The notes beneath the pieces were generated by a model. The model saw only the letters and a program-made list of their open reading frames with translations. It was not told the DNA's origin and searched no databases. Positions 4,918 to 36,758 of a stretch of 37,043 nucleotides of DNA are shown piece after piece. The position numbers and the translations under genes were made by a program. Numbering within the stretch: position 1 is the first letter of the stretch; every line of letters starts with the position of its first letter. The stretch spans positions 1 through 37,043 of the IMG/VR virus record IMGVR_UViG_3300006919_000158, one strand, 5' to 3'. This stretch comes from a virus.

Positions 4918-4922
4918 TTTAT

Positions 4923-8573: not shown

Positions 8574-8587
8574 AATTATATAATGAG

Positions 8588-8608
8588 GGAGGGGCTTTAT
8601 GCCTCTCC
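8588..8608 (+). promoter_or_regulatory. Second GC-rich RNA hairpin, related to the one at 7567
   Basis: GGAGGGGC pairs with GCCTCTCC (one G-U pair) around a five-base TTTAT loop, 14 bases after the stop of the second head paralogue. The flank shares the ten-base start TGAGGGAGGG and the closing CTCTCC with the hairpin at 7567-7586. AT-rich DNA follows but no continuous U-run, so it is better read as an attenuator or mRNA-stabilising element than a full terminator. Confidence 0.65.
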
Positions 8609-8623
8609 TAAATTTATTTAAGA

Positions 8624-8830
8624 ATGGCAATATATAAATTAATAAATGGTAAATTAGTCGACGTTAACGACTTACCGCAAGAAGAAAAAAAGGACAAACA
8701 CTTTAATTCTTCTATAAACCTAACTCCAGGGATTAAGTGGGGTAACAGAGGGTATCAGAAAAAATACATTTCTACTGACGAAAGAGGTAGAAGAAAAGTT
8801 TACTCTGAAACCAAAAACACAGGAGAGTAA
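8624..8830 (+). CDS. Small basic protein of unknown function
   Basis: This is a 68-residue charged protein (MAIYKLINGKLVDVNDLPQE), with a Lys/Arg-rich second half containing GIKWGNRGYQKKYISTDERG and ending in TKNTGE. It has no hydrophobic segment and no motif I recognise. It begins 15 bases after the second hairpin, with the common ATGGCA start, and lies 21 bases before the next gene. Its place among head genes suggests a minor virion or assembly protein, but this is only context. It is considered real because of packing, start type and codon use like its neighbours. Confidence 0.5.
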   Translation: MAIYKLINGKLVDVNDLPQEEKKDKHFNSSINLTPGIKWGNRGYQKKYISTDERGRRKVYSETKNTGE

Positions 8831-8851
8831 TTAATTAAAAACCAAAAAAAA

Positions 8852-9532
8852 ATGGCACATTTAGTTTACATTAAAGCGAAAGATCACAAAAAGTTTAACT
8901 ACGCATCTTTTGCTGCTTACAAAAACAAAGAAGGAAAAACAGTAACATTGTTAGATCCAGATGGAAATCCTATGGAAAAGTGGGAGCTTAACAATGCAAT
9001 GCAAGGTTTTGATTTAGAAAATGAACACGACAAAAGAGTGTGGGATTACCTACAAGAACATCCAGCTGTAAAAAGAGGTGGATTTACTTTTGTTGATTCT
9101 AGAAAAGGTGAGCAAGAAAACGCTGCTAAAGCTATTGCATCTGCAGAAGCAGTAACAACAGCAACATCTATGACGCCAGCAGAGTATGATGATATGGCAA
9201 GATTAATTGGTATATCACAAAACTTTGATGACATTATTAGAAAAGCAAGAGTATTGCAGTATGCTAATACATACCCAGACAAGTTCTTAGCTCTTTATAA
9301 CAACAAAGACAAGGACTATTATGTTTTCTTAAAGAAAGCTGCAGAAAAAGGCATTATAGCATATATTAATGATGTATGGAAATACGGATCTAATAGCATG
9401 GGTCTAACTGATGAGGCTGCTATAGAGTGGTTAAAAAACAACAAAGACATCTATGCTTTATTGCGTAATGAATTAAGAGGTAACAAAGAAGTTGTTGCAG
9501 AAAAAATTAAATCTACTAAAAAAAGTAAATAA
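8852..9532 (+). CDS. Hypothetical protein of the head/neck gene group
   Basis: This 226-residue soluble protein has an A-rich leader (aaaccaaaaaaaa) and an ATGGCA start. The N-terminal part has a short beta-like segment with KTVTLLDPDGNPMEKWEL (residues about 30-48). The rest is mostly helical: an Ala-rich stretch near 92-105, DDMARLIGISQNFDDIIRKA near 112-131, and a Lys-rich tail ending in KSTKKSK. I recognise no catalytic motif. Its stop shares one base with the next start (TAATG), tying it to the neck-protein genes. It may be a minor head protein or an assembly factor; a basic tail like this can bind DNA, but that is speculation. Confidence 0.5.
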   Translation: MAHLVYIKAKDHKKFNYASFAAYKNKEGKTVTLLDPDGNPMEKWELNNAMQGFDLENEHDKRVWDYLQEHPAVKRGGFTFVDSRKGEQENAAKAIASAEAVTTATSMTPAEYDDMARLIGISQNFDDIIRKARVLQYANTYPDKFLALYNNKDKDYYVFLKKAAEKGIIAYINDVWKYGSNSMGLTDEAAIEWLKNNKDIYALLRNELRGNKEVVAEKIKSTKKSK

Positions 9533-10113
9533 TGCGTATAACAGATGCTTTAGCTACTATGGATTTGCTTTTAGATAAAGCAGAACAACCATATTATAGC
9601 TCTGAAGAAAAAATAGAATTTTTAAAAGAAGCTTTACATTCTTTTATTAATAAACATTATTCAGAGTATGATAAAAGCCAAGTGTCTAGAGACGCATTAC
9701 AAGCTTTTGTTAAAACGGATACTAACGCAGAATTACCTAACGATTATTTGCATTTAATAAGTGTTTTAAATAATAGTAAAGAGTTAGAAATTGTTGGCAT
9801 TAAACAATATGAGTCTAATGTACATAGTGGAGATCCTTTTAATAAAAATAGTATTGCAACAGTAAAAAATGGTTCAATAGAAGTTAATGACGATTCGCCT
9901 AGCTTAAATTATACATATTTATCTAGTCCTAAGATTACATCTATATTTGATACTATAGATTTAAGTGGATCTGAACCTTCTGTTGTAAAAACAGTTCCTG
10001 AAATTTATCTAAGCGAGATTATAAATTTAGCTGTAAGAAAAATGATGGTAAATACAGAGAGCGACAGCGTGTTAGTAAGTAGTGCAGAGATAGAGCAAAG
10101 CAGACCGAAATAA
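9532..10113 (+). CDS. Putative neck ring / head-tail adaptor protein
   Basis: This 193-residue protein opens with a helical region (MRITDALATMDLLLDKAEQP, then EEKIEFLKEALHSFINKHY) like connector proteins that bind under the portal. It continues into a beta-rich middle with NDYLHLISVLNN and ends in a helix-turn (EIYLSEIINLAVRKMMVNTE). The layout of N-terminal helices, beta core and C-terminal helix is shared by crAss-like ring proteins, and it sits in the expected cluster between capsid and muzzle genes. The start overlaps the previous stop (TAATG). It is followed by a short AGAGC-loop-GCTCT hairpin and the longer structured region at 10135-10183. Assignment to a specific ring is not possible from the sequence alone. 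Confidence 0.45.
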   Translation: MRITDALATMDLLLDKAEQPYYSSEEKIEFLKEALHSFINKHYSEYDKSQVSRDALQAFVKTDTNAELPNDYLHLISVLNNSKELEIVGIKQYESNVHSGDPFNKNSIATVKNGSIEVNDDSPSLNYTYLSSPKITSIFDTIDLSGSEPSVVKTVPEIYLSEIINLAVRKMMVNTESDSVLVSSAEIEQSRPK

Positions 10114-10134
10114 AGAGCTTTTTTGCTCTCTGCT

Positions 10135-10183
10135 CAATGATAGGTCTAAGTACTAATTTATTTAGTGCAAGGGCCTATTGTTG
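10135..10183 (+). promoter_or_regulatory. Long imperfect RNA hairpin in the intergenic region
   Basis: The left arm 10135-10147 pairs with 10171-10183 over 13 positions, four of them G-U. A symmetric AA/AA internal loop follows, then GTACTAA (10150-10156) pairs with TTAGTGC (10162-10168) around TTTAT. A smaller hairpin (AGAGC, six T, GCTCT) lies just upstream at 10114-10129. The structure fills most of the 103-base gap and ends at the -33 region of the promoter-like element at 10201. It may end upstream transcription or act as a leader element. Confidence 0.55.
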
Positions 10184-10208
10184 TTTCTAGTAATTTTAAG
10201 TATTTTTG
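10178..10208 (+). promoter_or_regulatory. Bacteroidota-type promoter (TTG-N20-TATTTTTG)
   Basis: TATTTTTG at 10201-10208 matches TAnnTTTG, and TTG at 10178-10180 lies 20 bases upstream of it, within the 17-23 base spacing reported for Flavobacterium promoters (a second TTG at 10181 gives 17). It is the best-formed promoter in the window. The ATG at 10217 is only nine bases beyond the box, so the transcript would have almost no leader. Confidence 0.5.
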
Positions 10209-10216
10209 TAAAACAT

Positions 10217-11227
10217 ATGGCAACATTAAATGAAATAGCATACAACATCAAAAGATTAGCTTATGGTGGTAAAAGTAATTCTGAGCAAAATGTAAATATT
10301 GAGCAGATTAAATTTTGGATACATTATCATAGAGCCATGATGTTGAAAGAAATATCTGCCGAAGGAAAAGAATTAAACTATAGTAATTTTCAATCTATTC
10401 TTTTTGATCAATCTAACGATGCTTTTGCAACAAGAAGTCAATGGGCAAATTACATAAATACTACAGCAGACGACACTATATTAGCTGAAGCTATAGAAGA
10501 TGATCCTGCAACAGCAGAAGATGAATCAGTAGCAGCTGTTACAGCAGATCCTACAGCTACAACTAATAGCTCTAGCCAGTTAATAGCTTTTTCTAATAGA
10601 ACAGCTAGTTTAGCTGGGATAACACCTGACTCGCAATTAACTAGAAACGAAAGTTTTTACGGATCAAATTCTTACGATAATAATTTTAAAAGAAGACATG
10701 ATGATTACGGCATTTTTGTATTAAATATGCCAAATGTTATTAATATTGATGGTAGTGGTGTTAAAAATTTGAGGTATAGAAAGACTCAAGATAATTTATA
10801 TCAAAATCATGGATCTGTAGATATTCCTATATTATCTCGTAATGAATGGGAAAACAAACAATACAATAGATTTTCTAAACATAGCGTTTCAGCTTACATA
10901 AGTAGACCTAGAAGCAATAATAATATAGATCAATTGAATATAGGTTTTGTTAAGTCTGTTTTTAAAAGTGATACAAATGGATATGAAGATCCAATAAGAT
11001 ATTTAATTTATGCTGATTTATTATTGTCTGATCCTACAAAAATGTCTGGATGGAATGATGATCAAACATATCCATTACAACAATCATTAGTAAATGTTCT
11101 TATAGAAAGGATATTGCAAAAAGAATTGAATTTTACATTAAGAGTACCAACCGATACAATAAGTGATAACTCAGATACAACAAAGATTGTTCAGCCGCAA
11201 GTACAAAGACAAGTACGTAACAGTTAG
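10217..11227 (+). CDS. Putative ring / tail-connector protein
   Basis: The start is placed at 10217 (MATLNEIAYNIKRLAYGG), giving 336 residues. The frame is open back to an ATG at 10178, but that one lies inside the hairpin and promoter, adds a hydrophobic MLFLVILSIFVKH that looks non-coding, and lacks the GCA second codon. The N-terminal region (EIAYNIKRLAYGGKSNSEQN, then IEQIKFWIHYHRAMMLKEIS) is the pattern I associate with a conserved crAss-like neck protein. Residues 90-125 are an acidic Ala/Thr-rich insertion. Later parts are beta-rich, with a helical segment near residue 300 (LVNVLIERILQKELNF) and a Gln-rich end. The last 65 bases overlap the next gene in another frame. Confidence 0.5.
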   Translation: MATLNEIAYNIKRLAYGGKSNSEQNVNIEQIKFWIHYHRAMMLKEISAEGKELNYSNFQSILFDQSNDAFATRSQWANYINTTADDTILAEAIEDDPATAEDESVAAVTADPTATTNSSSQLIAFSNRTASLAGITPDSQLTRNESFYGSNSYDNNFKRRHDDYGIFVLNMPNVINIDGSGVKNLRYRKTQDNLYQNHGSVDIPILSRNEWENKQYNRFSKHSVSAYISRPRSNNNIDQLNIGFVKSVFKSDTNGYEDPIRYLIYADLLLSDPTKMSGWNDDQTYPLQQSLVNVLIERILQKELNFTLRVPTDTISDNSDTTKIVQPQVQRQVRNS

Positions 11228-11570
11228 AAAGATATATAATGATAGTGATATAGATTTACCTTACAGTAAGTATTATGCTATCGTTAAAAGGTTTTTTGAA
11301 ATATTATTTAGAGATGTAGTAACAAGATTAGAGCTTGTACATCTACCAAATAAGATGGGGTATATTTATTTAGACAAAAAAGAACATAAAAGAGCTTTTC
11401 ATTATAGAATTGATTTAAATGAGTCTAATAAAAAAGGAGAAAAGGTAATATATAAGGTTCCTATATTGGATGATTATTATTATAAGATAATATGGGTAAG
11501 ACCACATAAATATAAAAATTGCAAAATAATGCCTTTAACAAAGGTTAAAAATTTAATTAAAGAATTATAA
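11163..11570 (+). CDS. Conserved-looking basic protein of the neck cluster, function unknown
   Basis: This 135-residue Lys/Tyr-rich protein contains KYKDKYVTVRKIYND (14-28), LPYSKYYAIVKRFFEILF, LPNKMGYIYLDKKEHKRAFH, then DDYYYKIIWVRPHKYKNCK and IMPL near the end. The dense runs of aromatic and basic residues look strongly constrained, and I have a memory of similar small proteins in crAss-like phage tail-neck clusters, without a known function. Its first 22 codons overlap the previous gene, and KYKDKYVTV lies within that overlap, so the overlap appears genuine rather than a misplaced start. Context suggests a virion or assembly role. It ends one base before the next ATG. Confidence 0.5.
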   Translation: MITQIQQRLFSRKYKDKYVTVRKIYNDSDIDLPYSKYYAIVKRFFEILFRDVVTRLELVHLPNKMGYIYLDKKEHKRAFHYRIDLNESNKKGEKVIYKVPILDDYYYKIIWVRPHKYKNCKIMPLTKVKNLIKEL

Positions 11571-11571
11571 A

Positions 11572-12033
11572 ATGGCAACTAAATTAACAGGATCAGCATT
11601 AACAGTTACTATAACTGAATCGCTAAATGTAGCTAACAGTACTGCTGCCGACAGCTTAGACTTCGCACAAACTACCACAATGAGTTTTGCAAACATAGTT
11701 AATGTAGACAAAAGGATTGTTAAATTAGCTAACACTAACGTTACAACAATAGCTAATTTTGATACAACAGAATCTGCAGGTACTTACAAATTAGGTGATG
11801 TAAAATATATTAGAGTTACAAATTTAGATTCAGCACAAAATTTACAAGTTGGATTTGAGGATAGTGGTACAGATGCAGCATACACTTTAGTAGCTCCAGG
11901 TTGTTCTGTAGTTTATACAACTACAGTAGTTGAAGGAACAGTAGGTGGATCAACTTTTGATAATGTCGCTACATTAAAAGTTAAAGCTGGACACAACAAT
12001 CAAAATGTAGAATTGTTTGTAGCGTCAGAATAA
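11572..12033 (+). CDS. Small beta-rich structural protein
   Basis: This 153-residue protein is rich in Thr, Val, Ala and Asn, with few charged residues and an alternating pattern typical of beta-sandwich virion proteins (for example YIRVTNLDSAQNLQVGFEDS and TYKLGDVKYIRVTN). It begins one base after the previous stop with ATGGCA and ends ten bases before the next start. There is no signal peptide or catalytic motif. The placement between neck proteins suggests a minor head or tail decoration protein. Composition resembles the truncated last gene in the window, though I see no convincing residue-level alignment. The role is inferred from context. Confidence 0.5.
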   Translation: MATKLTGSALTVTITESLNVANSTAADSLDFAQTTTMSFANIVNVDKRIVKLANTNVTTIANFDTTESAGTYKLGDVKYIRVTNLDSAQNLQVGFEDSGTDAAYTLVAPGCSVVYTTTVVEGTVGGSTFDNVATLKVKAGHNNQNVELFVASE

Positions 12034-12043
12034 ATTATAAAAT

Positions 12044-13009
12044 ATGTTTGTACCTGTACACAGAGTTTTTAATAATGTATCTAGAAATCTAGGTCTAGAA
12101 AATTATACTAACAATATAGATGCTTGGGCAGAGTGGGCTTTTGAAGCAGAGCAATATATTGGAAGTAATAAGACATTTTTACAAAAAGAGATAGTTTATT
12201 CTAGCACTCCAGAAGCAGCTGTTGGATCTATAGAGATTGAAACAAATCCTACAGATATGTCATACATAGACATAAACGGAACTAGATTCTTTTTTGTAAG
12301 TAGCACTATAGTTGGTGATGATTTTTACATTGATATAAAGTCTACTGTATACTTAACTTTACAAGAAGCGGTAGATGTTATAAACAAATCATTGTATGAT
12401 AATATCCAAGGCTTAAAGGCTAGTACAAGTGGTTTTGTACTAACACTAACTTGTCAAGAAAATGGTGATTGGGGTAATCACTTGACGCTAGATTCTGATA
12501 TAGGCAAAGTAACTGCTTTTGCAGGAGGTAAAGAGATGTATCACAATAACCAAGTTAGATTGCCTGATAATATGGTTAAAATGTTGTCAGTTAAAGCTGG
12601 AGGCACTATTATATTTCCTACAAGCTCACAATTTAGATCTTCTGTATCAGAAAACAGTAACAAATATTATGTTAACGGCAATAGATTAAACTTGACTAAT
12701 ACATATACAAAAGATGTTACAGTAAGTTATTTAGCTGTTCCTATGTCAGAAGAAGGTTATCCAATGGTAAAACAAGGGCACGAAGAAGCTGTTGCATCTT
12801 ATATTATGTGGAAGCATAAATTAATTACGTATTATTCTGGCGAAACACCACAATATATTATTAAAGATTTAGAAAGAAGATGGTATCAGTTGTGTGGTAA
12901 AGTTCGTGGAGATGATAATATGCCAAATTCATCTGAATTATTAAAAATAGGTAAGGTTTGGAACTCTAAAACTAGACCTAGATTGTATGACGGTTTAAAT
13001 AACTATTAA
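12044..13009 (+). CDS. Putative portal-proximal ring protein with inserted beta module
   Basis: The 321-residue protein has an N-terminal helical part (NNIDAWAEWAFEAEQYIGSN, 23-42) and a C-terminal helical part (GYPMVKQGHEEAVASYIMWK, 238-257; then LERRWYQLCGKVRGDDNMP). These are the hallmarks I associate with a conserved ring/adaptor protein of crAss-like phages found just before the muzzle gene. Between them, residues 60-162 form a separate beta-rich unit with IDINGTRFFFV, LTLQEAVDVINKS, FVLTLTC, GDWGNHLTL and FAGG, like a module common in phage sheath and fibre proteins. The stop shares one base with the muzzle gene start. The protein probably sits between portal and tail hub. Confidence 0.55.
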   Translation: MFVPVHRVFNNVSRNLGLENYTNNIDAWAEWAFEAEQYIGSNKTFLQKEIVYSSTPEAAVGSIEIETNPTDMSYIDINGTRFFFVSSTIVGDDFYIDIKSTVYLTLQEAVDVINKSLYDNIQGLKASTSGFVLTLTCQENGDWGNHLTLDSDIGKVTAFAGGKEMYHNNQVRLPDNMVKMLSVKAGGTIIFPTSSQFRSSVSENSNKYYVNGNRLNLTNTYTKDVTVSYLAVPMSEEGYPMVKQGHEEAVASYIMWKHKLITYYSGETPQYIIKDLERRWYQLCGKVRGDDNMPNSSELLKIGKVWNSKTRPRLYDGLNNY

Positions 13010-16000
13010 TGGCTACCAATAAGCAAGATAATAAAAAACAAAAAAATAAAAATCAAATAACTAAACCTTCAGGTTTTTATGGAGGTATGGTTTCTGATCC
13101 TGATCCTAGGTTGCAGCCTAAAACAACTTACAGGTATGCTCGTAACATTAGTTTAATAAATTTAGACGGCACTTCATTAACTGTAGAAAATGCAAATGGA
13201 AACAGAAAGATTGTAGATTTATTAGAATATTTTGGTAAAGATAAAGATGGCAATTTTGGATTTTATAATTACAATCCAAGTAGTATAGAATATTATGGCC
13301 CTCAAGAAGACAATTTAGATACTAGCCTAAATCAACAAGATTTTGCTGGTAATATTGTAGGTCATTATTCCTTTAAAAATCAATTGTTTTTAATTGTTTG
13401 TGGTATTACTAGATTTAGTCAAAACGAATCTGATTTTAGAACACAATTTTTGTTGTTAGATTTTGACAATAACGGTGAGGTTTTAAGAGTTAAAGATTTA
13501 AGAGTAAGTTTTAATGCTAATGGTGGCGCTGAGTTGCCTAATATAAACATGGACCCAACTATATTATGTAGAGTTGAAGGTTTAGTAGAAAATGAATGTT
13601 TGACAAGAGTTTATTGGACAGACAATAAAAATCCACTAAGAACTTTATCTTTAAAAAGTTCTAACTTAACAACATTAGATCCTAATGAGTTAGATGTAAA
13701 GCCACAAGCTTCTTTTAATCAGCCTTTAGTTGATAAAACAATACCTGGATCATTATTGTCAGGTGTTTATGCATATGCCTTTAAATACAAAACAGATGAT
13801 GGAGCAGTTTCGGGCATATCACCAATTAGCGATATATATCATGTTTCTAATAAGTCATTAGCTGGATCTGCTACTTATTATGGATCTAATTCTGGATTAC
13901 CTACTAGTTATGGTTTACAAATAAAAGTAGGTGAATTAGACGAAAGATATGATTCTGTAGAATTTTATTCTATTTATTATCAAGATTTAGATAATGCTCC
14001 TGTTGTTTCTAAGATAGGAGAAAAATCTATTACAGGTAGTAGCATGGTGTTTACACATAGCTCTATGAAGTCTGAAATACCTTTAGGCTTAACTGAAGTT
14101 TTAATACCCTCTAATACTTGGGATCTTTGTAAGGATATTGCTGTAAAAGATAATATTTTATTTGCTGCAAATTTAAGAAGTATACAAAATGTAGTTGGTG
14201 AAAAAGAATGGAATGTTAGAGTTAGAAGATGTTCTTTGCACGATCTTAGTACAGGTAGCGGTTCTGAAGTTGGTGTTTTAACAACAACAGACACAGAAGT
14301 AAAAGATTATAGACTAGATAGCTCTGGCAATCCATTTGAATTATATCAAGCGGGTTCTTACAAAAAATGGGATTTTAGTAATTCTTATAAAGCTTGTAGT
14401 CAATCACATAGATATATGCCTGAAATCACAGATAAGCCTGTTTTAGGAGCGATGTCATATGGTTTTTTAGATACAGATAGTGCATATGCTCAAAAAAATG
14501 AATTAGGAGGATGTAGAGTATCTTTTTATAATTTAAGAAAACTTTCAGAAAATAAAAACAACAAAGGAAAGAGTAATGATTTAACTTACGGGTCATATTC
14601 TTCTGAAGCTACAAATTTATATACTGACTCATACACAGACATTAATGATAGCAATAATAGTAATAACTATAAATTAAGCTTATCTAATATTGGTGGTGCT
14701 AAAGATATGGTTAGCGCAGGAAGTAGAAGAGGGTTCCAAAGAGGAGAAACATATAGATTTGGAGTCTTAGTATATGATAAGGCTGGAAACCCAGGTAATG
14801 TTTTGTGGATAGGCGATATACAAATGCCATATCACTCTGACAGATATTACAAAAGAAAAATTGATAATTATACATGGGACAGTGTATTAAGAGATGATTT
14901 ATATGAAGATGATACATATTCTATTGATTATAGAATGTCTTCTAGCTCTGCTATGCAAGTTCCTGGATACGTAAATAAACATAATAAATTTGATCAAACT
15001 TTTTCTGATAATGGATCAACGGGTGAATCTAGTTCTTTTGAAAAAAATAATATGTTTTTTAGTCCTCCTGGTGTAACAAATCATTACACTTATGATTTAG
15101 GACTTGTATTTGAATTTAAAATACCTCAAGAGGTAAGAAATAAAATATCTGGATTTAAAGTAGTTAGAGCAGAAAGAACTGAAAACGATAGAAGTGTTCT
15201 ACAACAAGGAGCATTAGCACAAACTGTATATTATTCTAGAAAACCAGCAATAAATCAATATTCATTTAAATATTCGCCATCAACAAGTTTAACAAACTTA
15301 GGTTCAGAGACAGATGAAACAAATCCATTATGGCCTGAATACGAAACATTATTAGGTGGATATATTGGATTAAATTATTACCAAAACAATTTAGATGGTA
15401 GCGGTGGAGATGGAACTGCTGCTAATGAATACATAGATACTTCTGATTCAGCAACATCTGTGTTGTTAAGAAAAGATCAAGATGGATTTTATTCTAGTGG
15501 AGGAGGAGCAGACACTAATTACACTACTTCTAGATATTTTGGATATGATGCATGGGGGTCTTATAAAAGGGCTAGTGGAAGCATAGGAAATACTAGACAT
15601 ATATGCTTAAATACTTGGGTAATGTATTCTCCTGACAGCGCTTTTGGTGTAAGGCCTTATCAACATGTTAATGGCAATAGACTTAGTATAATATCTACAT
15701 TAAAAGCTGTAGATAAAATTAGAGTTAAATCAGATCCAGAAATAGAAGCCACTGATGAATACGGTAATGCTACAGGGGTTACTAGAACTTTTAATACTTC
15801 TGACTATCCTTCTATAGATACATCAATAAACGAGGTTAGTGTAGGCTTTCAATATGGAGGATGGAATGCTGGTTCTGATAAAGGCGATTATTTTACAACA
15901 AAAAAAGTAGCAGAATCTGATCAAAGAGCTACAGCTCATAGTGCAGTTTTTGCTGTATATGACACCCAATTGCACCAACATTTAAGTGATTTAGCTACAG

Positions 16001-24806: not shown

Positions 24807-27800
24807 ATGGGATTTGATTTAAATGAATTTTTTCAATCACGAGTTAAAGCATCTAGAGGTGGATACCAACAGGCACAAGACGAATTAAAAGATCAAGTAC
24901 AAGATTATGATCAAGGTGGTCCGCTAGAACTTAATCCAGGAAAAAATTTAAGTTTTTCGCAAGGAGATATTAGTACTGCTGCAGCTGAAAAAAGAAGATC
25001 ATTTATGGATACAGGTAGAGGTTCTGGCATTCAACAACCAAATGTTATAATTCCTGAAGATCCTGAAGTAAAAGGCGCTATAGATCAAGATAGATTTATA
25101 AAGCAATCCATGATGCAAACTGAAGACATAGCTAGGTCTGAAGTACAGAGATTGCAAAGATCGTTATTAGCTGGTAGTGGACAAGTAGTAAGTATGGTAG
25201 GTGACGTGTTTAACTTTTTACACGCTATAACGCCAGATACAGGAGAAACATTTGAGCCGTTTGAAACAGTAGGTAATTTTATTACAAAGCATGGCGATAA
25301 AGCTATGAATCAAATGAAAAACACTTACATTCCAAAAGAGTTGGAAACTATCGAAATAGGAGATATGTTTAATCCAACTTTTTGGACGGGTGATGTAGCT
25401 CAGCAAATTCCTAACTTTTTAGCTATGTTAGCGCCAGGTGCTGTAGGAACAAAACTTGCTAGTAAAGGTTTATTAAAATATTTACCAAAATACACAAAAG
25501 CATCAAGAGGATTTTTAGATGATACAGTAGGTGTTGTTACAAGAACAAAAGGCAGGGGGCTAGGACGATCTATTATTAATGTTGGTATAGAAGGTGCTGA
25601 TGATTTTATTCTCTCAAAAGGAGGCAAAGCTTTGTCAGCTTTTCTTGGTGGTGGTATTGGTACTACATTAGTAGACGGAGCTACAATAGCAGGACAAACA
25701 TATAGAAATGGATTAGATTTAGGTTTAACTGAAGAAGAGTCTTCTGTAGCTGCTGCTAATGTATTTGGTAATAATTTTGCGTGGGCAGGTATTAATGGTT
25801 TGTCTTGGGCAATTACTTTTGGTAATGCTAGAATAGCGCCAGTAAGTAGTATGTTAAAAAAATTGCCAAAAAATAATTTTGGTAAAACTATAGCTGGTAT
25901 TACGCAAAGCAGGGTAGCAAGTTTTATTGGTAAGGCTGGTTTAGAATCATATGAAGAGTCTTGGCAAGAATCATATCAAGATTGGGTACAAAAAAGAGCA
26001 ATAGCAAAAGTTCAAGGCGTTCCTTTTAAGTATGATGGTGACTATTTATTTGCTAGCCAAGGCTTTAGAGATTATTATGATAGCCCTGAAAATAACAGAA
26101 CAAAATTTGTTGCAGCTGCCACAGGTTTGTTAGGTGGTGGTTTTTCTTCTATAATAAATGATTCAGCAAAACAACAGTTAGCTTTAGATCGTCAAAGAGA
26201 AATATTAGAGCAAAATATAGATTTACTAAATGATGGTAGTAGAGAGTCTAGATTAGCAGTTATAGATAATGTGGTAAAGCATTCTGTAGAAGCAAGAGAA
26301 ACAGATGAACTAAAAGCTTATATACAGCAACAATTAGATAAAGGTATTATAGATGAAAAGCTATACGATTTTTATAATAATATAATAGATTCTTATGAAG
26401 ATCTTTACAATAGAATACCAGACTATATAGAAGAAACTGAAGGCTTTGGTAAAGAACAATATTTTTCTAATTTATCTTTAATAGAAAGAAATAAAAATGC
26501 TTTAAAATATGCAGAAGATGAGTTAAAATCTTGGCAAGAAGAAAATAAAGATTCTATTGGCACAGAAAAATACGAACAGGTTTTAAAAGAAAAGCAAGAC
26601 CAATTAGACAATTTAAGAGTAGAGTTAGAAGAAGCTAGCGCTAAAGCTAGAGATGTTAATTTAGGAATAGAGCAAGAAATACTTACAGAAAACGATAGGT
26701 ATAAAAAAGGTGTTGGTTTAACAACAGATGGTAAATTAACTACTAAAGATGGTAAAAAGATTGGAGGAAGATTTGCTCCACAAAGTAAATTAGATCAAGA
26801 GCAAAAAGAAAGCATATTTACTAAAGAAGCTGAAGCAAAAAAAGCTAGAGAAGAGGCTGAAAAACCTGAAGAACAAGAAGATGCTACTGAAGAAAAGCCG
26901 TCTATTGTTAAAAGAGCTGTAGATACTGCAGGTCAAGTAGCTCGTAAAACAGGCGAAAAATTAGGTATAGTTAAACCTAAAGAAGAAACTGAAACACCAG
27001 CTAAACCAGATGTAAAAGCTGAGCCAGAAGCTGAAACTAAAGCAGAGCCTAAGCAAGAAGAAGATCCTTCTGTATCTAAAGTAGCTTCTAAATTAGAAAC
27101 AGGTACTATAACTCCTGAAAATGTTAGGCCACAAGATCAAGCTGATGTTGATGCAGCAATTAATTCTGTAGCAGAAAAATTAAACGCTGGTACAAAAGTT
27201 GCTGAATTAACAGATAATGAAAAAACGATTGCTATTGAGTTCCAGGAAGAGGTATCTCAAGCACGTAAAAAAAAAGATAATTCGGTAGACGTAGAAGTTG
27301 GTCGTAAAGTAGACGCTAGTACAGCTAGGGAAAAATTAGATAAAAAACAGAAAACTAAGACAAGTCAAAAAAAGCCAGCTAAACCAAGAGATAAAAAAGG
27401 CAAAAAGTCTAACTACAAATCTGCTAACCAAAACGTAGCAAAGAATATAAACTTTAGGCGTAGGAATGCTAGAATAGCTAATACTATGTTTATACAGGAC
27501 AAGTTAAACGTACCTGTAGGTATTATAGATTCTTCATTTAATCACTTTGGTACATCACCTGCATATGAGGTTGCTGGTGCTATATTTGTAGATCCAAATA
27601 AACTATATCAAGAACTATTTGTACACGAGTTTACAGGTCATATTTATTTTAGAGTAAATATGGATAAGCCATTGATTAAGAACTTTATCAAAGAGTTTGC
27701 TAAATCAAACGAGTATGTTGCTCTGAAAGGTAGATACCCAGAATTAGAAATGTTTAATTACAATGGTGTAGATTATACTTTAGCGGAAATTTCACAAGAC

Positions 27801-30800
27801 TTACACGAAAGATCGTTTAATAAAAATGATGAGTTTTTCTATTCTAATTTGACTCCTGAATTACAGGCTTTAATAGATATAGTAGATGAAATAGCAGCTA
27901 ACGAGAATGCAGGAGCATATGAAGGCACAGGTGTTACTAAACAAATAGAAGACTATTCAACATTAAAAAATATGTTAAACGAAAACAACCTTGTTAAAGA
28001 GGTTGCTTCTGAAAAACAATTAGCTTTAATGGAGGAAGGTTGGGCCACATATATATCTGATCCTGACAATCCTAATACAAGAGAAGACGCTAAAAAAATA
28101 TTTGATGGTATATTAGAAAGTCCACAAGAAAATAAAAAGCGTAAGTCTAGAATAAAACGTTTTTGGAATTTAGTAAGTAAGCAAGGTAAGTCTATTGAAA
28201 AAGAATCTAAAGCTATCTTACAAAGTGATAACGACTTTGATGGAATGAGTTTAGAAGAAATGCGTAGTAAAATTACTGCTGACATGCTTAAAATGACTCC
28301 TGAAGAAGTTAGACAAGGCAGGGCTACTAATTCTAGAAGAATGAATTATAAGCCTAACAGAAACTTAACTGATACATCTGTTTTTGAAAATGAATTAGCT
28401 AACAATGTATATAGAGCCGTAAGTAATGATAAAAAGTTAATAAAAGAGTTTGCTACTAAATACTCTAACGATCCTTCTAAACTATTAGAAGATGATGAGT
28501 TTATAAACATTATAGTAGAAAACATGGCTCAGCTATCATACGAATATGGTGTTCATAATAGATTTGCAGAGGCTATAATATACAATACTAAAAAACTATC
28601 TAAATTAAATCGTGAAGTTGTTGATTTACAAAAGAAAATTGATGCAGCTAAAAATTTAGATTCTAGAAGAGAGTTTGTAAAACAAATTAAATTTAAAAAA
28701 GCACAACTTAGAAAAGCAGCATCTAAAGTACAGCCAAAAGATATAGACACTACTACTATACAAATGGGTGAAACTAGTATGAGTGTAAGGTCTTTTGCAC
28801 AGGCTATAGCTTTTAAAGTTATGAATCGTAAAGGCATAAACTCTGCTTTTGATAGATTTACTAGAGAGGTAAAAAAACTATCTAGCGATGTAACAAAATC
28901 AGAGTTAGAAAATTTATTTAATAATGCTTTAGAAAAAGAAGGTCTTAATGATTTACAAATAGAATCTCTTGTAAGCGATCAATTGCGTGTAGTAATAGAT
29001 GAGTATGAAAAAGTATTTGGTATTAACTACCACGGCTTAGACGCTATTACAGACATTAATGAATTAGTAGACTATAGTGATAATGTTTTAAATATATACA
29101 ACAAAGACAAAGACGAGCTATTGTCTAGTATGTCTACTTTAATGCAAGACTTCACTAGAGTATATATGCAAACGCCAGAAGCTCAGTCTAAAAAGAAATC
29201 TGTAAGACAGCCATATGTAAAGAACAAGGCTTTAGGCGCTATGGCAATAATCTTGCAAACAGCACAACAGCATAGAGGTGATATACAGGGTTTTATAGGA
29301 TCTATTAGGTCTAATAAAAATAGTTCTGTAGTTGCTTTTGTAAAATACTTAGAAGATAAGTTAATAGTAGAAGGAGCTAAATATAGAAAGCCATTACAAA
29401 TACTTAGGAACAAAGACACTAAGAATGTACAAAAAAGTATGGCTGATTATTTATTATCATCTATATGGATAAACTTTAGCAATAGAACTAACGAACAAAT
29501 ATTTAGTACAGTAGAAAAAAATAATGACTCAACACAAATTAACTCATTAGATTTATTTAATGAAGAAACTACAGCTAATGAAGAAAGAGCTTTAGTGTCA
29601 AGAGTTATTAAAGAAGCTGGTTATATATTTAACAAAGGTAGAGAAGGTGACAGAAGACGTAGAGATATAGAGTTTTCTAAAAAAATTATATCAGCTATCA
29701 AAGGATTAAATACTGATTCTACCACTACATATGAAGACGCTGAATCTGTATTAATGGAAATGTTTGATGTTTATGGTGGTAATTATTTTTATTGGAGTAC
29801 TTTAGAACAAACAGGTATACAGGACGGCAGAAATAGAATTAGTTTAAACGATTGGTTTAAAAAGAATGAAAACAAAATAATAAAGTCATTAAAAGATTCT
29901 AGAATAGATGTAGGTGTATTTGAGCCTGTATTGCAGCAAGCAGCTTTAAATAGTAGAGTATTCTATTACTTTACTATGATAAAGAATGCAGAAGGCAATC
30001 CATCAAACACAATGAATAGTCGTAGCTTTATTATAAATCAGAACGAAAGACTAAATGAGTTTTTTGCTAGAAAAGAAGAAGAGACTGATCAAGAATATTA
30101 CGACAGAGTTTATGATAGAGCAGAATCATTAACAAGTATATACGGTAACAATGCTTACCTTCCGTTTGAATTTAAAGTTGTTGATGGTGTTGAAACAATT
30201 GAGCCTAGAATGAACGTTTTAAAGTTTAGAGGTGGTCTTATATCACAATTAAACAATAGAGGCTTAAACTACGTTAGATTAACTCCACAAGAGCTTATGG
30301 TTAGTGAGATGTCTGACTTTATGAGTGCGCTAGGTAGACGTAGACAAAAAGATAGTGAAGGCAATATAGTTGACACTACATACATGCAGCAGGTTGGCGT
30401 CTTTGCAGAAAAGACTAGAATGTATTATGTAGAAACTAAACTACTTAAAGATTCACAAATTAAAGAAGAGATAGATTTTAGATTGTCTGACTATATTGGA
30501 CAAACATATTTAGATGGAAATCCTGTATTGCCATTTATAAAACAAAAAGGTAAAAAGGCTGTTATAGATGAGTCTTATGTTAGAAAGCAAGTAGCCTTGT
30601 TAGAAAAGCATATGATGAATAATTTACATTTATACAAAACAAATGTAGATTTTGAGCAAATGTTTGATGGCAACAAATTAAATGCTGCAGGTAAAAAAGC
30701 ATTACGTACATATATATTAAACTTTGGTATTAATAGATTCCAAGCACAAAGAATGTTTATAGGTGATCATAAACAATTTAAAAGTGAAGAAGATTTTGTA

Positions 30801-33800
30801 AAGCGTAGTGCTGGATCTATAGCAAGACAAATGCCTACTGATATAAATCAATCTGTAGATGTTCTTATATTAAAAGATCAAGAAATTGATGGTTTTTCAG
30901 AAATGGATGCGCAAGGCTATATGCTTAGCGAAGATGCTGACAACGTAGGATCGCAGTATGGATTAAACTTTATGCGTAATGATAGTGAAACTGCTAGACA
31001 CTTTAAATATGTTTACTATGGTCAAGACTTGCGTGAAGATGGTTTAATTAATAATGTTTTTCAATCAAACAGTTCTTTTTACGCTAAAGCTAATGTTATG
31101 TCTATTACTCCTGAAATGGAAAAGAAAAATGCATATTTAGCTAGTGTAGCAGAATTATTAAGAGTTCGTAAAGCGGATTTACAAAAAGATAACAAAGAAC
31201 TTAACTACCAAGTTGTAGCATATCAAGAATCTGCTATCAAAACAGCACCTTTTAAATTAGAACAATATAGTATAGACTTAAAAGATATTAATGCTGATAT
31301 AGTTGGTACAGCATATGAATTTGAAATAAAACAACCTTATAATGATTTATATTCTAATGATTTAGGTTACGTTGGTTTAGATGGACAAAACTTTGGTGTA
31401 CAGTTAATACTTGATAAAGAAAAGTATACATCACCAATGGCATCACAGTCATACTCACAACACCTAACTAATACTACGCCTGAAACAAAATTGTTAGCGC
31501 AAGGAGCACATAGAGCAATAGCTAGAGCTATGTCTTATCAATTACAAGAATCAGGAGTTAAAAAGTATTATAATGTAGATGAGTATACAGAGGGAAAACA
31601 AATATCTTTAAATAGATCTTTATTAGATAAAATTAATTCATCTTGGGCTGGTAATCCTACTGGCAATATGAAGGATTATGCAAGTGCATTTTTCCCAAAG
31701 CTTAATGTATCTAGAAACTCTATACTTAATAAATTACTTATAGAGGTTGGTACAAAAGTTGTTACTCCAGGAACTATAGCATTCCAGGTAACTCCATATG
31801 GTTACAACTTAAAATCGTTTACAACTTTAAAATCTATAAAAGATACTACAAGCGATCCTGCTAAAATTAACAAGTTAATAGATAAGTATGGTGAAGATTT
31901 AATTGTTTCTGAAGCTATACTGCCATATAATATGTCTAAAGATTATAATGTAGGTGATATAGTATTAGGTAGTCGTATACCTTCACACGCAAAAGCAACG
32001 CAGCCTGTATTAATTGTTAAAGATTTCTTTGATAGAGATGCTGGTAGTATAATAGCTGTGGCAACTGGTGTTTCTAAATCTATGGGTTCTGACCTTGATG
32101 GTGATGCTATATTTGTAAACAGCAAATATGTTAAGAAAAATTTAAAGTTATCAGAAACAGCTTACAATAGAGCTTTTGACAACATTGTTAAATTAAATGG
32201 TAATCAAGCACACATAGATGAAATAACTACACCAATTGATTTTGAAAATGATGTAAAAGAGGCTTTAGAGTTTGCGGAAGATAAATTAGGTAGACGTACT
32301 GATGATTTTTCTACAGCATCAAATCAAATAATGCCTATAGGTATGTTAAATGCTTTTAACGAAAATGTGCCTGCGGGTGGAATGATTGGTATTGCCGCTA
32401 CAATGCAAAGAGATATGAATTACTTTGCACACCATAATGCAGAAATAGATTTTTCTGTAAGAATAGAAGGTGTAGAAAGGAATAAAATATCAGATGATGG
32501 TAAAACTAATTATTTACAAACTGCTAAAGTTTTAAATATTATATTAGATAATCCAAAGTACCAGTATGCACGTAAGCTAGGATTTACTTATGAAACAATA
32601 AAACCAGCAATGTTGTTGCTTAGAATGGGCTTTAATTTTAAGCAGGTAGCAACTATACTAAATAGCCAAGGTGCATTAAAATATAATAAGTACGTATCTG
32701 AAAGAACTGTTATAAATGTTAATGACATGTCTTATTATACTCCTGGACAAAAAGCAATGCTTGAGTACTATGAATCAGAATACAATAACAAAGAAGTTAC
32801 TGATTCGATACAATTCTTATCTAAGAAGCAATCACCATCTATGTATGTAAGAAAAAATGTTGATCCATTATTAGATGTTAAGAAAGGCGATACAATAAAT
32901 TTAGACTTTAGCAATGTCAATGACAATATGTTTAATATGCAGGTTGTTAAATTGCTAGACTCTATGAATAAAGTTGGTACTGAAGTATTTGACGTAGGTA
33001 GAGTTATTGGTTCTTATGGTCTTACATTACAAAATGGATTCCAAGTTGACAAACTTTTGTCTGATTTTGAAAATGTAGGTAATAAAGATTCTAGGTTTGT
33101 TGAAGGTCCAATGAAAGCTTTAAAAGCTGATCCTATTATACAACACAATGTAGACGTTCTTAATAAAATAAAAGAATTAGATAGAGAAATTAATACGCAG
33201 TATAGTAATGAAGCTTTACAAGTACAAAAATCTATAAATAAAATAGTTGATAGTAGTCAACAAAATGCATTCGAAAATCATCCTGTTGCTGTTAGACAGT
33301 ATCAGTTATTTAGAATGCAGCAAGATTTATCTGTGCTACAAGATATGCCGTCGCAAGACGTGTTATTTGCAAGCATAGAGCAGTTAGTGTATGAAAATTC
33401 TAAACTGCCGTATGATTTGCAAAATAGATATTTAGCTGACGGTATTATATTAAATTATGATAGTAAAACTGTATCACTAAATAGCAGGTTTGTTGACGCT
33501 AACATACCTGAGTCTGATATAAATATATTGCAGAGACATTTTGATTTGCTAGATCAAAACAGAGGTATTAATAAATTTGATATAGCTCCAGGTACACCAA
33601 GAATAGAGGTAGACAAAATTGATGATATAGAAATGGGATACACGCCTATTTATATGGACTTTAATACAGACCAAAGAAAGCTGTTTATACAAATGGACTT
33701 TTTGCAAAACGGATGGATTGGTTCTTCTTCTACTTCAGTATTATGGAGCCCTAACTCTTTTGGTAAAGATTTTAAAATTAATCAAGAGTTAAACAATTTA

Positions 33801-36758
33801 ATATTAGATAATAAAAGAAATGTTTCTAGTCAAGAGGCAGATAATTTAGCTATAGAGTTTTTAAAACAATACTCTTATAACGCTCCTTCAGTTACAATGA
33901 TTGAAAGCGAAGTATCTGAAGATGGCACTGTTTATGCTATTAAAAATTATCCACCTCCTGTAATAGATAAGTTACAACAATCTAACACGCCTCATGTTGT
34001 AAAATCGTGGGATAATGTAGATAGATTGTATAGAACTTTTGAATATAAAGATGGTAAATATTATCTAATAGGAGATTCTAAATTTAATCCTAAACAAGAA
34101 GAACAACATAGGTCTACTAATACTAGCAAAACATTTAAGCAAGTAGTACGTAAAGTTGTTGACAGGAAAAAATTTGGAAATAGATCTAACAAAAGTAGAT
34201 ACAAAGGATCTTATGACATTTCTGATGTACAAGTTAATAGAGCTGAACAAGCTGGTATACCTACAAAGGCTATGTCTAAGGATGCATATTTTCAATTAAA
34301 AGGGCTGTCTACAAGAAATAGAACTATGTCTGCTGGTACTGAACAGTACTATAATAAAATGTATGAAAACTACAAAGAGCAGCATAATGATTTATATCAG
34401 TCATTGTATTTAACAGATATAAAAACTGACAACTATAAAACTTTAACTGAGGCTGAGTTAGTTGATATATCTATTAAGTTAAGTAATTTTGATAAAGTAT
34501 TATACAATCAGTATATAGAATATATTGGTGTAGAGCTTACTGAAAGAATGGAAAAAAAGCAAATAGCTAACATAGCTGAAGTTGCTAACAAAAATAAAAT
34601 TTCATTAATTGGTAAAGATTTAGGTGCTTGGGAGTCTTGGTTAATTTCTAATAACTTAAAACAAACAAATCCAGAAGTGCAATCTATTATTAGAGATTTA
34701 CAAAATGGATACATGAAGTTTGTTAAAGATTATAGAAGAATATCTAATCGTATAGGTAAGTTAGAAAAATCTATAAAAGAAGAAAGGTTATCTAAGTTAA
34801 CAAATGCACAAATTACAGGTTTGTTTTTGAGAGGTAAACTAAACGATTACATATACAAAAACTTATTTAAAGTTAATGTAAATAAAGATGGGCGTGAGTT
34901 TATATCTTTAAGAAAAGCTGAAGAATTAAAAAATGCAGGAGCTACACAAAATGAAATAGCTTTTTATAATTTGTTTATAGATCAAATACAAAAATATAGT
35001 CCTGGTAAAGATTTAACATCTATACCTTATAAGGCTATGAGTGGTTTACCTTCTCTAGGTAGACATGGTTTATTAGGTTTATACAAATCACAAATAGGCA
35101 GTACGTCTGATTTAAACAATATAAAAGTACAGGGTGAATTGTTAGACGGCACTACTGATATTAGAACGTTTGCAGAATGGAAAACTTTATACGAAGCTAA
35201 AACAAAAGATTCTTTTTTAAATAAAGCTAAAAATTTAATAAGATTAGAAAAAGTTAGAAAACGTGCTGTAGCAGCAGCTAAACGTGGTATGAACGATGAC
35301 AAAACTCCTATCTTATTAAACAAAGTAGAAAGAGCTGCTATGACTGATAGCGATGTGTTTTATAACATGATAGATAATAAAAATGTTAGTATATCAGAAA
35401 TAGGCAGTAGAGACTTAGGAGATGTGTTAAAATCATTTATACATAGCAATATGTTTAAACACGGAACGCAAGAATATAGATTAGATTATTTAAATGAAGT
35501 TAAAGTTATATCAGACAAAGATGGTAATAAATTTTTTGAAGAAACTTATCAGCAATGGGCTGTTAGAAATGAAAAGTCTGATTTCTTGGGTATGCAAACA
35601 TATTTACCTCTTATTGATGGTGCTATAGCATTAAACAAACTTAAAGGTAATGACAATATGGTAAAATATCTTCAAGAGGTTTGGAAAGACAATGTTATTG
35701 GTGGTAAAAAACAAAAATCATTTAGTGGTGTTTGGGATTGGTCTATTAACAAACTTGTAGATATTACAACTTTAGGTTATATAGGTTTAGACTCATCTGT
35801 TGTTTTAGGTAATACTATTATGGGTAAATATACAAACCTTAGGGCTAAAGGCGGAAAAGAGTTTGTAAAAGGTGAAAAAAGATTTTGGCAAGGATTTTTA
35901 GGGGGTCAGGCTTCTGTAAAATCATACAAAGAAAGAGCTAAAAATTTAAAATTTGGAGCTACTAATAAAACTACTGCAATGCTTAATGAGTTGTTTAAGT
36001 TTGAATACTATGAGTATGAAGATATATCAGCAGTACATAAACAAAATCCTATTTTTAGATTAGCATTGTGGCCAATGGAACAATCAGAAAAATGGATACA
36101 AGGTGTTATGTTTTTTGGTCAAATGACTGAAAAGCAATGGGGCTCATATGATGCAGATACAGAAGGTAATTTATTAGTAAAAGCTGTTGATGGTAAGTTT
36201 TATAAATATACAGATTTGCCTTTAGATCAAATAAGCTCTGATGCATTGAGTATAGATCAGGTAAATCAAATAGTATTTGATGTTAAGAAACAGCAAGGTT
36301 TTGGTTACTCTCCTTTAGACCAGCGTAGACTTTCTATGTATAGTTGGACAAGAGCTTTAGGACAGTTTAAGAAATACTTTTGGACATTTGGTAGAGAAAG
36401 AACAAGTGAAGAAAATATTGATATGTATGGTAATCCTGACATAGGTACATATAGAGCTTCTTTTGAATTTACACAAGATATGTATCAGGGTAAGAAAACA
36501 TTAAAAGATTTTCAAAAACTTCCTGAACACAGAAAAGATGCTATTATTAGATATGTGCGTGGTGTTGCTATGACTATGGCTGCTATGTTAGCATATGGAT
36601 TGTCATCTGATGATGATGATAGTGTAGTGTCACAAAGTATAAATAGAGCAGCATATGCTAGAATACAAGAGCAAAACGTACTCTTTAATCCAGATAGATT
36701 AAAGTTTATGGCAGTGCCTCCTAGCGTCAATTATGTATCAGATAGATTAGGGATTTAA
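24807..36758 (+). CDS. Giant virion RNA polymerase with fused ejection and metalloprotease-like domains
   Basis: The protein is 3,983 residues. Residues 195-470 are hydrophobic/amphipathic with Gly-rich stretches (FLAMLAPGAVGTKLASKG, FLGGGIGTTLVDGATIAG), like membrane-entering parts of ejected proteins. Residues 555-640 form a coiled coil, and 670-875 are a Lys/Glu/Pro linker. Next comes a zincin-like site, HEFTGH (940-945) with EEGWATY (1076-1082). The polymerase signature is at 2390-2433: RIPSHAKATQP followed by GSDLDGD, matching in order and spacing the cellular beta' block RAPTLH to NADFDGD; D2429, D2431 and D2433 would bind catalytic magnesium. The crAss-like phage phi14:2 packages such a polymerase (gp66) to transcribe early genes. 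The C-terminus has a hydrophobic segment near 3920. The long fusion is unusual; proteolytic maturation is possible. Confidence 0.82.
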   Translation: MGFDLNEFFQSRVKASRGGYQQAQDELKDQVQDYDQGGPLELNPGKNLSFSQGDISTAAAEKRRSFMDTGRGSGIQQPNVIIPEDPEVKGAIDQDRFIKQSMMQTEDIARSEVQRLQRSLLAGSGQVVSMVGDVFNFLHAITPDTGETFEPFETVGNFITKHGDKAMNQMKNTYIPKELETIEIGDMFNPTFWTGDVAQQIPNFLAMLAPGAVGTKLASKGLLKYLPKYTKASRGFLDDTVGVVTRTKGRGLGRSIINVGIEGADDFILSKGGKALSAFLGGGIGTTLVDGATIAGQTYRNGLDLGLTEEESSVAAANVFGNNFAWAGINGLSWAITFGNARIAPVSSMLKKLPKNNFGKTIAGITQSRVASFIGKAGLESYEESWQESYQDWVQKRAIAKVQGVPFKYDGDYLFASQGFRDYYDSPENNRTKFVAAATGLLGGGFSSIINDSAKQQLALDRQREILEQNIDLLNDGSRESRLAVIDNVVKHSVEARETDELKAYIQQQLDKGIIDEKLYDFYNNIIDSYEDLYNRIPDYIEETEGFGKEQYFSNLSLIERNKNALKYAEDELKSWQEENKDSIGTEKYEQVLKEKQDQLDNLRVELEEASAKARDVNLGIEQEILTENDRYKKGVGLTTDGKLTTKDGKKIGGRFAPQSKLDQEQKESIFTKEAEAKKAREEAEKPEEQEDATEEKPSIVKRAVDTAGQVARKTGEKLGIVKPKEETETPAKPDVKAEPEAETKAEPKQEEDPSVSKVASKLETGTITPENVRPQDQADVDAAINSVAEKLNAGTKVAELTDNEKTIAIEFQEEVSQARKKKDNSVDVEVGRKVDASTAREKLDKKQKTKTSQKKPAKPRDKKGKKSNYKSANQNVAKNINFRRRNARIANTMFIQDKLNVPVGIIDSSFNHFGTSPAYEVAGAIFVDPNKLYQELFVHEFTGHIYFRVNMDKPLIKNFIKEFAKSNEYVALKGRYPELEMFNYNGVDYTLAEISQDLHERSFNKNDEFFYSNLTPELQALIDIVDEIAANENAGAYEGTGVTKQIEDYSTLKNMLNENNLVKEVASEKQLALMEEGWATYISDPDNPNTREDAKKIFDGILESPQENKKRKSRIKRFWNLVSKQGKSIEKESKAILQSDNDFDGMSLEEMRSKITADMLKMTPEEVRQGRATNSRRMNYKPNRNLTDTSVFENELANNVYRAVSNDKKLIKEFATKYSNDPSKLLEDDEFINIIVENMAQLSYEYGVHNRFAEAIIYNTKKLSKLNREVVDLQKKIDAAKNLDSRREFVKQIKFKKAQLRKAASKVQPKDIDTTTIQMGETSMSVRSFAQAIAFKVMNRKGINSAFDRFTREVKKLSSDVTKSELENLFNNALEKEGLNDLQIESLVSDQLRVVIDEYEKVFGINYHGLDAITDINELVDYSDNVLNIYNKDKDELLSSMSTLMQDFTRVYMQTPEAQSKKKSVRQPYVKNKALGAMAIILQTAQQHRGDIQGFIGSIRSNKNSSVVAFVKYLEDKLIVEGAKYRKPLQILRNKDTKNVQKSMADYLLSSIWINFSNRTNEQIFSTVEKNNDSTQINSLDLFNEETTANEERALVSRVIKEAGYIFNKGREGDRRRRDIEFSKKIISAIKGLNTDSTTTYEDAESVLMEMFDVYGGNYFYWSTLEQTGIQDGRNRISLNDWFKKNENKIIKSLKDSRIDVGVFEPVLQQAALNSRVFYYFTMIKNAEGNPSNTMNSRSFIINQNERLNEFFARKEEETDQEYYDRVYDRAESLTSIYGNNAYLPFEFKVVDGVETIEPRMNVLKFRGGLISQLNNRGLNYVRLTPQELMVSEMSDFMSALGRRRQKDSEGNIVDTTYMQQVGVFAEKTRMYYVETKLLKDSQIKEEIDFRLSDYIGQTYLDGNPVLPFIKQKGKKAVIDESYVRKQVALLEKHMMNNLHLYKTNVDFEQMFDGNKLNAAGKKALRTYILNFGINRFQAQRMFIGDHKQFKSEEDFVKRSAGSIARQMPTDINQSVDVLILKDQEIDGFSEMDAQGYMLSEDADNVGSQYGLNFMRNDSETARHFKYVYYGQDLREDGLINNVFQSNSSFYAKANVMSITPEMEKKNAYLASVAELLRVRKADLQKDNKELNYQVVAYQESAIKTAPFKLEQYSIDLKDINADIVGTAYEFEIKQPYNDLYSNDLGYVGLDGQNFGVQLILDKEKYTSPMASQSYSQHLTNTTPETKLLAQGAHRAIARAMSYQLQESGVKKYYNVDEYTEGKQISLNRSLLDKINSSWAGNPTGNMKDYASAFFPKLNVSRNSILNKLLIEVGTKVVTPGTIAFQVTPYGYNLKSFTTLKSIKDTTSDPAKINKLIDKYGEDLIVSEAILPYNMSKDYNVGDIVLGSRIPSHAKATQPVLIVKDFFDRDAGSIIAVATGVSKSMGSDLDGDAIFVNSKYVKKNLKLSETAYNRAFDNIVKLNGNQAHIDEITTPIDFENDVKEALEFAEDKLGRRTDDFSTASNQIMPIGMLNAFNENVPAGGMIGIAATMQRDMNYFAHHNAEIDFSVRIEGVERNKISDDGKTNYLQTAKVLNIILDNPKYQYARKLGFTYETIKPAMLLLRMGFNFKQVATILNSQGALKYNKYVSERTVINVNDMSYYTPGQKAMLEYYESEYNNKEVTDSIQFLSKKQSPSMYVRKNVDPLLDVKKGDTINLDFSNVNDNMFNMQVVKLLDSMNKVGTEVFDVGRVIGSYGLTLQNGFQVDKLLSDFENVGNKDSRFVEGPMKALKADPIIQHNVDVLNKIKELDREINTQYSNEALQVQKSINKIVDSSQQNAFENHPVAVRQYQLFRMQQDLSVLQDMPSQDVLFASIEQLVYENSKLPYDLQNRYLADGIILNYDSKTVSLNSRFVDANIPESDINILQRHFDLLDQNRGINKFDIAPGTPRIEVDKIDDIEMGYTPIYMDFNTDQRKLFIQMDFLQNGWIGSSSTSVLWSPNSFGKDFKINQELNNLILDNKRNVSSQEADNLAIEFLKQYSYNAPSVTMIESEVSEDGTVYAIKNYPPPVIDKLQQSNTPHVVKSWDNVDRLYRTFEYKDGKYYLIGDSKFNPKQEEQHRSTNTSKTFKQVVRKVVDRKKFGNRSNKSRYKGSYDISDVQVNRAEQAGIPTKAMSKDAYFQLKGLSTRNRTMSAGTEQYYNKMYENYKEQHNDLYQSLYLTDIKTDNYKTLTEAELVDISIKLSNFDKVLYNQYIEYIGVELTERMEKKQIANIAEVANKNKISLIGKDLGAWESWLISNNLKQTNPEVQSIIRDLQNGYMKFVKDYRRISNRIGKLEKSIKEERLSKLTNAQITGLFLRGKLNDYIYKNLFKVNVNKDGREFISLRKAEELKNAGATQNEIAFYNLFIDQIQKYSPGKDLTSIPYKAMSGLPSLGRHGLLGLYKSQIGSTSDLNNIKVQGELLDGTTDIRTFAEWKTLYEAKTKDSFLNKAKNLIRLEKVRKRAVAAAKRGMNDDKTPILLNKVERAAMTDSDVFYNMIDNKNVSISEIGSRDLGDVLKSFIHSNMFKHGTQEYRLDYLNEVKVISDKDGNKFFEETYQQWAVRNEKSDFLGMQTYLPLIDGAIALNKLKGNDNMVKYLQEVWKDNVIGGKKQKSFSGVWDWSINKLVDITTLGYIGLDSSVVLGNTIMGKYTNLRAKGGKEFVKGEKRFWQGFLGGQASVKSYKERAKNLKFGATNKTTAMLNELFKFEYYEYEDISAVHKQNPIFRLALWPMEQSEKWIQGVMFFGQMTEKQWGSYDADTEGNLLVKAVDGKFYKYTDLPLDQISSDALSIDQVNQIVFDVKKQQGFGYSPLDQRRLSMYSWTRALGQFKKYFWTFGRERTSEENIDMYGNPDIGTYRASFEFTQDMYQGKKTLKDFQKLPEHRKDAIIRYVRGVAMTMAAMLAYGLSSDDDDSVVSQSINRAAYARIQEQNVLFNPDRLKFMAVPPSVNYVSDRLGI

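Follow-up and report, generated by a model that had tools for sequence, protein, structure and literature searches.

The viral DNA analyzed here (positions 1 to 37,043 of the IMG/VR record IMGVR_UViG_3300006919_000158; this entire 37,043-nucleotide stretch is referred to below as the window) encodes terminase, portal, and major head proteins that match crAss-like families, followed by a 2102-aa protein, two cargo-like genes, and a giant protein (Table 1). The same gene order is found in crAss001, cr4_1, and Flavobacterium phage Fpv3. In blastp searches, several gut crAss-like phages match the giant protein in their polymerase region, and the locus shows the layout of the virion RNA polymerase block of Crassvirales: a giant gene with the DxDxD motif that comes after the muzzle, C1, and C2 genes, along with a crAss-like portal and terminase. 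The 826-aa product of the gene in the C1 position weakly matches a tape-measure PHROG, and the C-terminal region of the giant protein resembles the downstream giant gene of cr1_1 at the level of 28% (E = 1.8e-8 in blastp). The corresponding polymerase proteins of crAss001 have been found in the virion by proteomics and are thought to enter the cell together with the DNA (PMC10172136). By analogy with crAss001 and N4, the giant protein of the window is presumably packaged in the virion and delivered with the DNA.

The initial annotation singled out in this giant polymerase protein an HExxxH zinc-protease motif, HEFTGH, and a downstream segment, EEGWATY, that would provide the third zinc ligand. 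Both segments were located in the giant ORF, at residues 940-945 and 1076-1082, respectively. The HExxxH pattern itself was read correctly, although the two His residues are separated by four residues (as compared to three in HExxH) rather than by five, and the inter-motif distance, put at about 130 residues, is 137 when counted from H940 to E1077. The zincin-like domain that carries these motifs is located upstream of the polymerase, with HEFTGH ~1490 residues (1489) before the DLDGD motif. It is preceded by an E/K/P-rich linker, in which conservation is lower than anywhere else in the protein (65% identity to the closely related contig L003). A 110-aa antisense ORF (27953-28285, minus strand) overlaps the domain and is probably incidental.

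Table 1. Features of the giant polymerase locus in the window (residue numbers refer to the giant protein)
Feature	Coordinates	Strand	Basis
Two genes in the position of the C1/C2 cargo proteins, 826 and 742 aa	20084..24805	+	Synteny: crAss001 gp45/gp46, Fpv3 gp30/gp31
Giant virion RNA polymerase-type protein, 3983 aa	24807..36758	+	ORF, DLDGD, blastp, gene order
Polar E/K/P-rich linker joining the N-terminal module to the zincin domain, residues ~640-860	26724..27386	+	Composition
Predicted zincin-like (gluzincin-type) domain, residues ~880-1110	27444..28136	+	Alignments of 24 homologues
HEFTGH, residues 940-945	27624..27641	+	H, E, and H identical in all 24 homologues
Extra codon, Gly944 in the alignment (HExxH to HExxxH)	27636..27638	+	Relatives outside the clade all have a gap here
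Gln1071	28017..28019	+	Invariant in both homologue alignments
EEGWATY, residues 1076-1082	28032..28052	+	Second Glu invariant
DLDGD polymerase catalytic motif, residue 2429	32091..32105	+	
C-terminal region	36267..36656	+	blastp: similarity to a giant gene of cr1_1, separate and located downstream, and to phi14:2 gp76

Conservation of the predicted zinc site

A domain-based scan retrieved three close contigs (L001 to L003, 80-100% identity), all of which contain HE[FY]TGH and EEGWATY; a search with a degenerate DNA pattern of the motif returned the same three contigs and no others. More distant relatives were collected without using the motif as bait: a portal alignment led to 80 crAss-like contigs, and a polymerase-spanning query, run in 26 of their records, revealed nine giant proteins (L122 to L130). 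All nine carry a zinc motif at the matching place, which is HELSHP in five of them and HEFSH, HEKWH, HENWH, or HENFH in the others. Further members of the family, again all with HExxH, came from motif-guided scans; such scans are biased to the motif, and their output was used for the alignment, not for estimating its frequency. No relatives were found among the GTDB contigs, an HMM search of 50 portal-bearing contigs (most of which end before the giant gene) returned only the already known carriers, and tblastn searches with the domain or the polymerase against named phages produced weak matches or none. A weak match of residues 985-1033 of the window protein to 568-617 of crAss001 gp50 does not keep the register of the polymerase and is probably fortuitous.

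In the alignment of 24 homologues, which has a mean column identity of 34-35%, invariance is limited to five columns (H, E, H, Q, and E), and none of the homologues lacks the residues corresponding to H940, E941, H945, and E1077. This pattern makes H940 and H945 probable zinc ligands and E941 a probable general base. The downstream motifs of the relatives (LLEEAFA, VLEEAVA, ANEALA, and QDEALA, as compared to MEEGWA in the window) vary before the second Glu, so the conserved residue, and the probable third zinc ligand, is E1077, the second Glu of EEGWATY. The distance from the first His to this Glu, where readable, is 107-130 residues in the relatives versus 137 in the window; the long inter-motif distance is thus a family trait. 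The zinc motif precedes DxDGD by 1286-1407 residues in most environmental relatives and by 1457-1661 residues in the HENFH group, and several relatives have a polar linker 120-300 residues upstream, as in the window. Gln1071, which precedes the third-ligand Glu by six residues, shows the same invariance in the family as the zinc ligands.

Two of the relatives have additional features. In L128 (225-12299), there is, besides the upstream motif, a second HExxH (HETIH, residue 3275) located downstream of the polymerase; the window has no counterpart of it. In L126, the giant gene is split just past the polymerase motif into overlapping 2312-aa and 1376-aa frames (3917-8044 and 8013-14948), which could be a genuine split of the gene or the result of a frameshift.

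Searches of Pfam, PHROG, and PDB sequences produced no peptidase match above the threshold, and a search of PDB sequences with the family profile returned nothing credible. One family member showed a weak match to Tox-MPTase2 (E = 0.0017, below the cut-off); matches to PatG_D and other sub-threshold Pfam matches were judged to be due to chance. The AlphaFold model of the window domain has a mean pLDDT of 59.5, its better part including the two motif helices, and that of the homologue L145 has a pLDDT of 74.4 and a pTM of 0.74, with its first 36 residues below 50. Both motif segments are on predicted helices in either model (the third-ligand helix spans positions 208-220 and 190-201, respectively), as the initial annotation proposed for EEGWATY. 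A Foldseek comparison of these moderate models, in which the N-terminal strand region has a pLDDT below 50, with the PDB and viral models detected no zincin match.

Apart from HEFTGH, the 3983 amino acids of the giant protein include no HExxH- or HExxxH-like motif. Any such motif appeared in 3% of the shuffled giant proteins, and only 0.3% of the shuffles combined it with E[AGS]xA 30-180 residues downstream. Chance is excluded far more strongly by the conservation of the site than by these shuffling statistics.

Origin of the HExxxH motif

The HE[FY]TGH variant is confined to the window and L001 to L003, whereas every relative outside this clade has the classical HExxH. In the alignment, the difference amounts to a single extra residue beside the second His, present only in the window clade. 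In a polymerase-core tree of 24 rows, the three HExxxH rows form one clade (100/100), which joins the HELSHP group (100/100) inside the HExxH relatives. Given this nested position, the HExxxH motif is, as judged from the alignment and the tree, a derived state that arose by a one-codon insertion in an HExxH lineage.

The motif is encoded by CAC GAG TTT ACA GGT CAT in the window, CAC GAA TAT ACA GGA CAC in L003, and CAC GAG TAT ACA GGG CAT in L002, so that the extra Gly codon is GGT, GGA, and GGG, respectively. Comparison of the entire zincin domain with that of L003 gives dN of ~0.13, dS of ~1.15, and dN/dS of ~0.11. The synonymous differences between the motif codons and the low dN/dS ratio indicate that the insertion is stable and that the site has been kept in the window lineage. 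A sequencing or assembly error was ruled out as the source of the extra codon, which is carried by three further contigs, in two of them with synonymous differences. The initial annotation allowed for a distinct, convergent, or degenerate metalloprotease; the first two descriptions agree with the invariance of the His pair, E941, and E1077, and the last one is not supported, the site being retained with synonymous changes in its codons.

Zincin domains of other phages

An HEAFH-type domain is present in the gut crAss-like phages crAss001, cr4_1, cr1_1, cr114_1, and cr10_1. In four fused giant proteins, 1431-1503 residues separate it from the polymerase motif that follows; in crAss001, which has the split form, it occupies the very end of gp47. 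This domain shares with the one in the window the phage order, the place upstream of the polymerase, and the ExxA signature but differs in the spacing (roughly 40-50 residues in most cases, versus 107-137 in the window family) and in having HExxH rather than HExxxH. Based on their position, the two domains are likely to be homologous across the order; profile comparisons, with probabilities of 13.5% and 41.5%, are no more than suggestive of this relationship. Another crassvirus, phi14:2, has no HExxH in the gene at the corresponding position.

An HExxH zincin located beside a giant polymerase has been described in the virion RNA polymerase of N4, where it forms the C1 domain (PMC12633501; PDB 9pnr, 11gp). 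However, the N4 zincin lies after the polymerase and the window zincin before it, the N4 polymerase is T7-like whereas the crAss polymerase is of the DxDxD type, and a profile comparison of the N4 zincin with the window family gives no significant match (8.5%). A second type of crAss-like zincin (type-B), with HExxH followed by an EF motif, is encoded in the downstream giant gene and matches the zincin of N4 gp50 (L177) with a profile probability of 95.8%. It is carried by L015:498-4763 (phi14:2 gp76), L016 (cr4_1 gp27), L017, L018, and the C terminus of Fpv3 gp32 (L012). Such a match suggests that one protease module may have become joined to phage polymerases that are unrelated to each other, those of N4 and of the crAss-like phages with type-B zincins. 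The N4 zincin profile also matches chain G of PDB 9sfn (Internal virion protein, 1337 aa; E = 9e-7), which looks like the same domain.

Polyvalent phage proteins contain zincin-like MPTase domains, including an HEXXXH subset that also has the extra residue (Iyer et al. 2017, PMC5512222). Similarly to the window domain, these combine the zincin motif with a downstream Glu on a second helix and a variable insert, and reside in giant proteins that enter with the DNA (entry of the window protein being presumed). The window domain differs in having no Pfam match and in that its HExxxH arose within an HExxH-containing crAss-like family; for the latter reason, its insertion is probably independent of the one in the HEXXXH set.

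Possible roles of the domain

As a whole, these data are best explained by a gluzincin-type domain, derived from an HExxH form with its site kept, in a packaged polymerase protein of a crAss-like phage, and we regard this explanation as likely. The domain would descend from the HExxH domain common to all near relatives, with H940, H945, and E1077 binding zinc and E941 activating water. The giant protein would travel in the virion and leave it together with the DNA, whereupon the domain could cut within giant polypeptides, the probable site being the linker immediately upstream; the composition and place of this E/K/P-rich linker suit a cleavage that frees the polymerase part. Such a cut would free or activate the polymerase.

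As the working mode of the domain, self-processing after ejection falls somewhat short of an even chance. Self-processing has been proposed for the zincins of polyvalent proteins, and P1 DdrB undergoes cleavage prior to packaging (PMC5512222); the polymerase of N4 is repressed by its C-terminal region, which holds the zincin (PMC12633501). The N4 vRNAP is reported to be packaged unprocessed (PMC5512222) and has been purified, and its structure solved, as a stable full-length recombinant protein (PMC12633501). Given this stability, self-cleavage is not automatic, and a trigger or some other role must be allowed for. The most specific scenario, in which a built-in protease cuts its own protein after ejection, switching the polymerase on, and the one-codon insertion yields a still-active HExxxH, thereby independently repeating the solution seen in M49 and TMCP, is rather speculative.

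An active zinc protease could also be aimed at a host defense or transcription factor met early after ejection, as zincins of polyvalent proteins have been proposed to be possible effectors (PMC5512222) and the entry of the crAss001 giant polymerase proteins with the DNA (PMC10172136) would bring the domain into the cell. We consider such a target doubtful: the fixed place of the domain beside the polymerase over a very deep divergence better fits a polymerase-linked job, and nothing in this analysis points to a host substrate. The third option, a zinc-binding fold that has little, if any, protease activity and plays a part in structure or in packaging/ejection, draws on the uncut state of the N4 vRNAP in the virion and the requirement of its zincin region for encapsidation (PMC5512222), as well as on the insertion being a rare change in the active-site helix, where the extra Gly may have lowered or ended catalysis. 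This option is unlikely, too, given that E941 is as invariant as the ligands, the HExxxH clade included, and a purely structural site would not need a general base; furthermore, such HExxxH enzymes as DPP III, TldD, and TMCP are active.

A chance motif in a helical protein, even with no fold recognized from the models and with ~0.017 HExxxH motifs expected at the His content of 0.78%, is very improbable because the H/E/H/E residues stand nearly alone in being invariant over 24 divergent homologues, and the motif is present in 9/9 relatives found without it as bait.

Capture by the phage of a true member of the M49 (DPP III) family, the type initially suggested for this motif, has a practically negligible probability: the two share on sequence alone the HExxGH hexapeptide and an EE-type third-ligand motif, but DPP III is a two-lobed enzyme with its EExRA-type motif ~57 residues after HELLGH (137 in the window), the M49 model has 548 positions against ~230 aa of the window domain, and no M49 match was found in the window or its relatives by a Pfam scan or a six-frame search, which had a positive control in a Bacteroides. 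The nearest relatives of the window domain are phage HExxH domains, and HExxGH is found in this family only in the window clade, all other members having HExxH. The likeness to DPP III is therefore convergent, and so is the likeness to TMCP and TldD. The TMCP/MATCAP tubulin carboxypeptidases are gluzincins that, similarly to the window domain, combine HExxxH with an EEG third-ligand motif (PMC10499314) but are eukaryotic and have no Pfam match to it; TldD has HExxxH with a Cys ligand (PMC5810440).

While HEXXXH zincins in polyvalent proteins (PMC5512222) and a zincin adjacent to the virion polymerase of N4 (PMC12633501) have already been published, the crAss-like zincin family, which has no Pfam or PHROG model, and the documented in-lineage change from HExxH to HExxxH are new. 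A literature search, with Yutin 2018 and Drobysheva 2021 outside its reach, returned no paper combining crAss-like phages with zincins or metalloproteases. To the crAss-like giant polymerase proteins, the current analysis adds a conserved protease-like domain that is absent from Pfam and PHROGs. The HExxH sister lineage and the HExxxH lineage of the window make a clean natural pair for studying the tolerance of the active-site helix to an extra residue, and the presence of the protease-like domain makes it directly testable whether these proteins undergo processing on entry.
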